The notes beneath the pieces were generated by a model. It did not search any database, was not told the DNA's origin, and saw only the letters and a program-made list of their open reading frames with translations. The translations under genes were made by a program, and so were the position numbers. Shown piece after piece: positions 54,842 through 58,095 of a stretch of 64,000 bases of DNA. The DNA comes from Lysobacteraceae bacterium (GTDB taxonomy: Bacteria; Pseudomonadota; Gammaproteobacteria; Xanthomonadales; Rhodanobacteraceae). Each line of letters starts with the position of its first letter. The first letter of the stretch is position 1. Location of the stretch: positions 37,216 to 101,215 of the forward strand of contig JAGWPB010000001.1 in the NCBI GenBank assembly GCA_028870665.1, written 5' to 3'.

Positions 54842-56743
54842 TCAGTGCAGGGCCTCGGCCTCCAGGCGATGGGCAAGATCGACGATGGACATGCTGCCGT
54901 GATCTTCCCCGTTGCGCGTGCGCACAGCAACGTGTCCCGAATCCCGCTCGCGGTCACCAACCACCAGCAGATAGGGCACTTTCTGCAACGTATGCTCGCG
55001 GATTTTATAGCCGACCTTCTCGTTTCGCAAATCGGCCTCGACGCGGAAACCTTTTCCGACAAGGGTTTGCGCAAGCTCGCGGGCATAGTCGGCCTGGGCA
55101 TCCGTGATGTTGAGGACCACGGCCTGCAGCGGCGCCAGCCAAAGCGGCAGGTTGCCGGCATGGTGCTCAATCAGGATGCCGATGAAACGCTCCATCGAGC
55201 CGACGATAGCCCGATGCAGCATCACCGGATGGCGACGGCGCGAATGCTCATCCACGTATTCGGCGCCCAGACGCTCGGGCATCATGAAATCGACCTGCAT
55301 GGTCCCGACCTGCCAGGCGCGGCCGATCGAATCGTGCATGTGATACTCGATCTTGGGCCCGTAGAAGGCACCCTCGCCCGGCAATTCCTCCCAGCTGATG
55401 TCGCAGGCAGTCAATGCCGCGCGCAACGCCTCCTCGGCCTTGTCCCAGACCGCATCGGCACCGATGCGCTGATCGGGCCGCAGGGCGATCTTCAGCGCGA
55501 TATCGCTGAAACCGAAGTCCGCGTAAACCTGCATCGCCTGGCGATGAAAAGCCGTCACCTCGGCCTCGATCTGGTCCTCGGTGCAGAAGATGTGACCATC
55601 GTCCTGGGTGAAGGCGCGCACGCGCATGATGCCGTGCAGCGCGCCGGAGGGTTCGTTGCGATGGCAGGCCCCGAACTCGCCGTAGCGGATCGGCAGGTCG
55701 CGGTAGCTGTGCAGGCCGGCGTTGTAGATCTGCACGTGGCCCGGGCAGTTCATCGGCTTCACCGCGTAATCGCGCTTTTCCGACTCGGTGAAGAACATGT
55801 TTTCCTTGTAATTGTCCCAGTGCCCCGAGCGCTTCCACAGCGATACGTCAAGAATCTGCGGGCAGCGCACTTCCTGATAGCCGGAGGCCTTGTACACGCG
55901 GCGCATGTATTGCTCGACCTGCTGCCAGAGCGCCCAGCCGCGCGGATGCCAGAACACCATGCCCGGCGCTTCCTCCTGCTGGTGGAACAGGTCCAGCGCC
56001 TTGCCGATCTTGCGGTGATCGCGTTTCTCTGCCTCCTCCAACTGGTTGAGATAGGCCTTGAGATCCTTGTCGTTGAGCCAAGCAGTGCCGTAGATGCGCG
56101 AAAGCATCGCGTTGCGGTGGTCGCCGCGCCAGTAGGCGCCGGCCACCTTCATCAGCTTGAAGGCCCTGAGCCGCCCGGTGTCCGGCACATGCGGCCCACG
56201 GCAGAGGTCGGTGAACTCGCCCTGGCTGTACAGCGACAGCTCCTCGCTGGCCGGAATCGATTCGATGATCTGCGCCTTGTACTCCTCACCCAGTCCGCGG
56301 AAGAACGCCACTGCCTCGTCGCGCGGCAACACGCGACGCGAAACCGGCAATGCCTCGGCGGCGATCTTCCTCATCTCCGCCTCGATCTTCGGCAGATCCT
56401 CGGGCGTAAATGGTCGATCGTAGGCGAAGTCGTAATAGAAGCCGCTGTCGATCACCGGGCCGATCGTGACTTGCGCGCCGGGATACAGCCGCTGCACGGC
56501 CTGCGCCAGAAGATGCGCCGTGGAGTGGCGAATGATCTCCAATGCCTCAGGGCTTTTCTCGGTGATGATCTGCAGATGTCCGTCGCTCTCGATGCGCTGG
56601 CCGAGATCAAGCGTACGCCCATCCAGCTTGCCGGCGATGGCGGCCTTGGCGAGGCCCGGACCGATCGCTGCGGCGATATCGCGCAGGGTAACGGGATGGT
56701 CGAAGGACTTCTGGCTGCCGTCGGGGAGCGTGATGGTGATCAT
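54842..56743 (-). CDS. thrS: Threonyl-tRNA synthetase
   Basis: [31 protein letters not shown] domain; [11 protein letters not shown]; catalytic class II motifs. Confidence 0.98.
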
Positions 56744-56820
56744 GAAATGGATTGAGTGGTGGTGGCCCGACGGCGCTTGCCTATGAAGCGCAGCACGGTC
56801 GCGACATGGGGGGCAACAAC

Positions 56821-56842
56821 GAAAAAGGGCGCCGGGCGCCCT
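56821..56842 (-). terminator. Intrinsic terminator in the thrS 5' leader (candidate attenuator)
   Basis: Minus strand AGGGCGC-CCG-GCGCCCT-TTTTC, between the thrS promoter and thrS start. Confidence 0.75.
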
Positions 56843-56875
56843 CATGGAGACTGCGGCCCAGCGCGCGATGGATGC

Positions 56876-56896
56876 TCAGTCGATCCGTGTCCTCAT
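56876..56896 (-). other. Mini-ORF MRTRID* in thrS leader
   Basis: ATG AGG ACA CGG ATC GAC TGA preceded by GAGGG at 6-nt spacing; directly after a 9-bp GTAA-loop hairpin (56908-56929). Confidence 0.4.
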
Positions 56897-56956
56897 GTCG
56901 CACCCTCGACGCGCGGTTACCCGCGCGTCACCCAGTCGGCATCGTATTCGAAGTGC

Positions 56957-56985
56957 AAACTAGAGCAGCATCCGCACGCTGTCAA
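56957..56985 (-). promoter_or_regulatory. Sigma70-type promoter for the thrS operon
   Basis: Minus strand TTGACA (56985-56980), 17-nt spacer, TAGTTT (56962-56957). Confidence 0.65.
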
Positions 56986-57111: not shown

Positions 57112-58095
57112 ATGCGCATCCTGGTGACGGGCGCCGCCGGATTCATCGGCGCGGCACTGGTCGAGCGCCTGCTGGCCCGCGGCGATGCGGTGTCGGGCCT
57201 CGACAATCACAACGACTACTACGATCCCGCGCTGAAGGAAGCCCGGCTGGCGCGCTTTGCCGATCATCGCGCCTACCATCATCTGCGCGCCGACGTCTCC
57301 GACGCGCCCGCGGTCGAGCGCGCTTTCGCCGAAAGCCGGCCCCAGCAGGTGATTCATCTGGCCGCGCAAGCCGGGGTGCGTTACTCGTTGACGCATCCCG
57401 AGTCGTACATCCAAAGCAACCTCGTCGGTTTCGGCCACGTGCTGGAGACCTGTCGCCGCCACGCGGTCGGTCACCTCGTGTACGCCTCGTCGAGTTCGGT
57501 CTACGGTGCCAACCGCAAGCTGCCGTTCGCCGTCGACGACGCGGTGGATCACCCACTTAGCCTGTACGCCGCCAGCAAGCGCGCCAACGAACTGATGGCG
57601 CACGCCTACAGTCATCTGTATGCGCTGCCAACGACAGGGCTGCGCTTCTTTACCGTGTACGGTCCGTGGGGCCGCCCGGACATGGCGCCGATGCTGTTTG
57701 CCGAGCGCATCCTGCGCGGCGAACCCATCGACGTGTTCAACCAGGGCCATCACCGTCGCGACTTCACCTACATCGACGATATCGTCGACGGCGTGCTGCG
57801 CGTGCTCGATCATGCCCCCGCGGCTGGCGCCGATCCGGCATCGGGCGCGCCGTATCGGCTGTACAACATCGGTAACGATGCTCCGGTCGAGCTGTTGCGC
57901 TTCATCGAACTGCTCGAACGCGAGCTTGGACGCGGCGTCGAGAAACGCCTGCTGCCGATGCAGCCCGGCGATGTCGAATCCACCTGGGCCGACATCGAAC
58001 CGTTGCGTCGCGATACCGGATGGGCGCCGTCGATCGCGATCGAGGATGGCATCGCCCGGTTCGCCGCGTGGTTTTGCGACTACCGCCACCTATGA
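57112..58095 (+). CDS. NAD-dependent epimerase/dehydratase (UDP-glucuronate 4-epimerase-like)
   Basis: ILVTGAAGFIGAALVERLLARGDAVSGLDNHNDYYDPALKEARL; YAASKRANELMAH; FFTVYGPWGRPDMA. Confidence 0.92.
   Translation: MRILVTGAAGFIGAALVERLLARGDAVSGLDNHNDYYDPALKEARLARFADHRAYHHLRADVSDAPAVERAFAESRPQQVIHLAAQAGVRYSLTHPESYIQSNLVGFGHVLETCRRHAVGHLVYASSSSVYGANRKLPFAVDDAVDHPLSLYAASKRANELMAHAYSHLYALPTTGLRFFTVYGPWGRPDMAPMLFAERILRGEPIDVFNQGHHRRDFTYIDDIVDGVLRVLDHAPAAGADPASGAPYRLYNIGNDAPVELLRFIELLERELGRGVEKRLLPMQPGDVESTWADIEPLRRDTGWAPSIAIEDGIARFAAWFCDYRHL

Follow-up and report, generated by a model that had tools for sequence, protein, structure and literature searches.

The enterobacterial thrABC operon has a leader (Rfam RF00506, Thr_leader) in which a leader peptide with threonine codons is combined with an attenuator. 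At the thrS operator of Escherichia coli, translation is blocked by the enzyme itself, bound to a leader that resembles a tRNA. Classical attenuators are known before synthetase genes, namely before pheST in gamma-proteobacteria and, as predictions, before trpS and leuS in Streptomyces (PMC1262725). T-box riboswitches before thrS are typical of Firmicutes (PMC2494555). E. coli ThrRS, with thrS under the control of its own product, figures in an open survey of premature terminators (PMC2965389), the main text of which has no leader of the kind described here.

The leader described here lies upstream of thrS in a window of 64,000 nucleotides from a Lysobacteraceae bacterium (the window is the whole stretch of DNA that was analysed). 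It is very probably a ribosome-mediated transcription attenuator which sets the expression of thrS by the supply of charged tRNA-Thr. With pheM-pheST and the Streptomyces trpS and leuS leaders it has in common a leader peptide with cognate codons, an antiterminator, an intrinsic terminator and a synthetase gene. It differs from them in its open reading frame of only 5-9 codons, with 1-3 Thr codons and a near-invariant, rare ACT as codon 3, in a conserved hairpin (P1) just 5' of this frame, and in a protector strand (region 1) that, where supported, lies upstream of the frame and not within it. The E. coli operator acts on the same gene from its leader; here, by contrast, the region upstream of thrS has a mini-ORF with Thr, a terminator and an antiterminator that covaries, and the loop of P1 lacks conservation. 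A tRNA-mimic operator was considered and dropped, as the loop varies in length and sequence and has no conserved anticodon-like sequence. This supports the contrast with E. coli that had been drawn in an earlier reading made from the letters of the window (the sequence-only reading). The Firmicutes T-box makes termination before thrS depend on whether tRNA-Thr is charged, as is proposed here, and AGGTGGCCCGCG is loosely T-box-like. A T-box reading of this motif was dropped, with no stem I or specifier region, a position 5' of the mini-ORF and no Rfam match.

The window leader matched no Rfam family, even at E 10. RF00506, which belongs to a different operon, gave no match in the source genome or in ten related leaders, and the same model detected its controls, including E. 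coli. Searches of open-access full texts yielded no description of a leader peptide before thrS for this group; an earlier prediction in subscription literature is possible. The leader family has no Rfam entry and is a candidate for addition. It would place transcriptional leader-peptide control of thrS, in a group for which none was found described, beside the E. coli operator and the Firmicutes T-box. With the near-invariant rare ACT at codon 3, it could be tested cleanly whether attenuators favour whichever codon responds most to tRNA charging.

Organization of the locus

The promoter, hairpin, mini-ORF and terminator proposed in the sequence-only reading were all confirmed by direct reading of the window. 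The features are:

54842..56743, minus strand: thrS, threonyl-tRNA synthetase, 633 aa, start MITITLPDG; the gene under the proposed control
56822..56842, minus strand: intrinsic terminator AGGGCGC-CCG-GCGCCCT with T-run; stem 56842-56826, T-run to 56822
56829..56837, minus strand: antiterminator 3' strand GCCCGGCGC; overlaps both terminator arms and the loop
56856..56864, minus strand: region 2, antiterminator 5' strand GCGCTGGGC; from folding with its partner and the swap test
56876..56896, minus strand: mini-ORF MRTRID (ATG AGG ACA CGG ATC GAC TGA), with Thr codon ACA at position 3
56897..56907, minus strand: conserved GAGnGTGYGAC, directly 5' of the mini-ORF start; from alignment; GAGGGTG in the window at 56907-56901
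56908..56929, minus strand: hairpin P1, GACGCGCGG-GTAA-CCGCGCGTC; perfect 9 bp, -18.8 kcal/mol
56930..56937, minus strand: region 1, GACTGGGT in the window, ACAAGGTGG in relatives; candidate protector strand and candidate ribosome-binding sequence
56957..56962, minus strand: -10 hexamer TAGTTT, 17-nt spacer to the -35 hexamer; from sequence and recurrence in relatives
56980..56985, minus strand: -35 hexamer TTGACA; from sequence and recurrence in relatives

Read along the minus strand, the promoter is followed by region 1, P1, GAGGGTGCGAC, the mini-ORF, an interval of 33 nt, the terminator with its T-run, and thrS, the ATG of which (56743) lies 78 nt beyond the terminator. Upstream, the next gene is epimerase-like, lies on the plus strand and starts at 57112. 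For this reason no minus-strand gene ends upstream of the leader, as had been noted in the sequence-only reading. Downstream of thrS, infC and the ribosomal protein and pheST genes are arranged in the same direction, so that the leader switch could act on translation factors too.

Among the genomes of the order that were sampled, nearly all contain a full-length match to ThrS (633 aa) with at least 62% identity. At G018:C1:1343318-1345150 lies a second thrS homologue, almost full-length, with 55% identity to the window ThrS. The thrS start in the window is the conserved one and has no Shine-Dalgarno match. Upstream, the thrS frame remains open (56741-56845, minus strand) as far as an ATG within the terminator, at 56845. 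Folding of the whole window leader is only slightly stronger than that of shuffles (z -1.4 and -1.6), and a single sequence therefore proves little by itself.

Conservation and distribution of the leader

By comparison across relatives, the leader, P1, the Thr mini-ORF and the terminator are conserved, and the antiterminator covaries. The sequence-only reading depended on conservation of these elements, and the leader does recur before thrS, in two families. In relatives it has the form AAGGUGGCC-hairpin-GGYCGAGnGUGYGAC-AUG-nnn-ACU-ACn...stop, followed by region 2 and the terminator; the position n of GAGnGTGYGAC is C, T, G or A. The leader was found in named contigs of Dyella, Rhodanobacter, Luteimonas, Lysobacter, Pseudoxanthomonas and Xanthomonas. 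Judged by thrS loci from named organisms, the window falls close to Dyella and Rhodanobacter, and the family names given to other genomes rest on this placement.

A covariance model of 54 positions, covering the 5' half of the leader (P1 and the mini-ORF start), matches 247 of 399 genomes of the order, and all but a few marginal ones belong to the two families. In the sampled class only five strong matches were obtained, all inside the order and none outside it. The source genome contains one strong match, before thrS (E 4.9e-16; next best 0.018). Second matches in some genomes are weak (24-27 bits) and mostly consist of the hairpin alone.

Covariation among homologous leaders, proposed as a check in the sequence-only reading, is present in the antiterminator (see below) and in P1. 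For P1, 95.4% of cells are paired and the score is 0.236, as compared with 0.124 in shuffled controls and at most 0.072 when the pairing was slid. A second hairpin, GUCG-AGUGUG-CGAC, was dropped, since its pairing is lost where GGUC changes to GGCC.

About half of the 149 leaders have the promoter, in the form TTGACA-17-TAGnnT, at a constant spacing: approximately 60 nt 5' of the mini-ORF ATG, 71 of them score at least 9 of 11, and shuffled leaders reach at most 8. The TTGACA/TAGTTT promoter was absent from the output of a generic promoter scan of the window.

Mini-ORF

Codon 3 encodes threonine in all 149 distinct leaders and is ACT in 139 of them, in a set biased by its selection, for which GTGYGACATG and a Thr among residues 2-5 were demanded. 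Without the Thr filter, codon 3 is Thr in 120 of the 120 loci located by the covariance model, 3 of whose 54 positions cover this codon. Threonine is also encoded by codon 4 in 129 of the 149 leaders, with a variable third base. The stop codon is conserved, and exactly 8 codons precede it in 126 of 149 cases. ACT is rare among Thr codons: it makes up 3.7% of them in thrS of these species and 5.7% in the window genes.

The mini-ORFs of the window and its two sisters are MRTRID, MGTRTD and MGTRID, in which the second Thr is replaced by Arg. Because MRTRID has a single Thr codon, it had been regarded in the sequence-only reading as unlike a classic Thr-rich attenuator. The codon count is correct for the window, but the reading is misleading for the family, with its constant threonine at codon 3 and frequent second one at codon 4. 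MRTRID is a reduced form, and the window leader is a divergent member of the family. The window's genus also includes mini-ORFs of 5 codons (for example MSTPR, MSTTF and MSTTR), as well as two eroded-looking leaders, L248 (G010) and L249 (G001), which have altered mini-ORFs with Thr still at codon 3 and retain the promoter and a P1-like region. The thrS attenuator may be decaying within this genus.

Terminator and antiterminator

The window terminator has a folding energy of -13.3 kcal/mol, the outer G-T pair included. With the same search, a terminator between the mini-ORF and thrS was detected in 140 of the 149 leaders; among relatives, none was detectable in L023, L030, L050, L053 and L064. 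No convincing antiterminator had been found by eye in the sequence-only reading. One does exist, formed by 56864-56856 with 56837-56829. The hairpin GCGCTGGGC:GCCCGGCGC (-22.9 kcal/mol) is mutually exclusive with the terminator, and its equivalents in relatives show compensating changes: CGAGG/CCUCG, CAAGG/CCUUG (L152, L153), CCACGG/CCGUGG (L180) and CCAGGC/GCCUGG (L174).

Comparison of the pairing with single-base shuffles of region 2 gave modest z-scores (-0.94 and -0.60), and swaps of partners between species were therefore adopted. In 51 non-redundant leaders, the own antiterminator pairing amounts to -17.07, as against -15.03 with the partner of a swapped species (z -6.3, p <1e-4); the control pair 1:3 gives about zero. 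Redundancy among the leaders was cut because kinship can inflate the z-scores of this test, and the signal persists under stricter cuts.

Putative ribosome-binding signals and region 1

Region 1 (AAGGUGG) pairs with the anti-Shine-Dalgarno sequence at -8.1, as compared with -6.0 for shuffled sequences (149 leaders). The anti-Shine-Dalgarno pattern was not found in the source genome, the assembly of which may simply be without its rRNA. GAGnGUG was dropped as a Shine-Dalgarno sequence (-5.76 versus -5.78 shuffled).

The leaders were split into a Rhodanobacteraceae-like and a Xanthomonadaceae-like set by residue 2 of the mini-ORF, a proxy for family. Pairing of region 1 with region 2 exceeds swapped controls in the former (z -3.6, p 0.0003) and gives no signal in the latter (z -0.6). 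As a trait of the whole family this pairing was dropped, given the null result in the Xanthomonadaceae-like set and an all-leader signal that vanishes at stricter redundancy limits. It is conceivable, though doubtful, that AAGGUGG 5' of P1 is the Shine-Dalgarno sequence of the mini-ORF, with P1 bridging to the start, that the same strand doubles as the protector of region 2, and that the single rare ACU at codon 3 is the Thr sensor. One RNA strand would in that case serve both the loading of the ribosome and the switch of the terminator.

Predicted folding with a ribosome on the leader

To model the effect of a ribosome, the RNA was masked as far as a chosen position and the probability of the terminator was then calculated, under equilibrium folding that ignores the kinetics of transcription. 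In 140 leaders the median probability is about 0.2-0.4 with the segment behind the stop codon free, 0.76 with 6 nt hidden past the stop and 0.86 with 10 nt, approximately the footprint expected for a ribosome with the stop codon in its A site. Between a stalled and a terminating ribosome the probability moves by 0.30 in 47 non-redundant leaders, and by 0.09 (replicate means 0.02-0.17) when region 2 is shuffled. In the window leader the step occurs only at 14 nt hidden past the stop, versus the usual 10-11 nt, and there is little switching in its sisters, L002 and L003; the model therefore fits the family better than the window copy. A variant in which the 5' arm of the terminator pairs before the 3' arm exists was set aside, as it only weakly told the ribosome states apart.

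Proposed mechanism and alternatives

We infer as follows how the ribosome moves, how the leader responds to threonine and in which direction thrS is controlled. RNA polymerase would initiate at TTGACA/TAGTTT, and a ribosome would load on the mini-ORF right after P1. With ample Thr-tRNA it would reach the stop codon and cover region 2 just behind it; the antiterminator would be blocked, the terminator would fold and transcription would end before thrS. With scarce Thr-tRNA the ribosome would stall at codon 3 (or 4) and leave region 2 exposed to pair with the 5' arm and loop of the terminator, so that transcription would read into thrS. In the Rhodanobacteraceae-like group, a helix of regions 1 and 2 may favour the terminator when no ribosome is present. 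The response of the window leader may be weaker because it has one Thr codon (ACA) and because its region 2 lies slightly farther from the stop. That the leader is a thrS attenuator, as the sequence-only reading had held, is the most likely interpretation, in view of its conservation before thrS and of a terminator with a covarying antiterminator.

The sequence of P1 and its flanks shows strong conservation, beyond the need of a plain hairpin, which would suit binding of ThrRS to P1 as a mimic of tRNA-Thr, either shifting the balance between terminator and antiterminator or blocking translation. Control of E. coli thrS by its own product, which the survey cited above (PMC2965389) also notes, is a precedent. 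Such autoregulation is nevertheless unlikely here: the P1 loops of relatives (GNRA loops, CTT, TCC and others) have no common anticodon-like triplet, and the fixed Thr codon, the rare-codon bias and the length of the frame would be left unexplained. The chance that the mini-ORF senses something else, such as the general rate of translation or, in the window's clade, arginine, is small. In MRTRID the ACA codon is flanked by AGG and CGG, of which the former is a rare Arg codon (7 of 314 Arg codons in the window genes), and codon 4 is Arg in the window and its sisters; yet Arg at this position is limited to few leaders, Thr at codon 3 is the sole constant over the 149 leaders, and the gene is thrS.

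A compact transcript of about 130 nt would also result from the promoter, the stable hairpins and the terminator, and the lack of a Shine-Dalgarno match at the window thrS start would agree with a gene driven from elsewhere. The short terminated transcript would in that case be a small RNA or a by-product of a constitutive terminator. This is very improbable, given the strict linkage of the leader to thrS, the overlap of the covarying antiterminator with the terminator, and the absence of an upstream minus-strand gene in need of a terminator.

Other thrS leaders with Thr mini-ORFs

A distinct Thr-rich mini-ORF (MTPRTTT... and variants), with GGTT before it and a strong terminator after it, was observed upstream of thrS, mostly in Betaproteobacteria (L052, L054, L055, L057, L061-L063, L066-L069, L071, L081, L084, L089, L092, L097, L098, L103). 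The same switch was not seen in the masking model for these betaproteobacterial leaders, where the terminator dominates; any switch there would therefore work differently. Many of these leaders directly follow a tRNA gene. A third type of Thr mini-ORF before thrS, without P1, is present in L021, L024, L041 and L047 (MTRTACNA, MTRTAFNA, MTRTGLLN and MSTRTAVNN).
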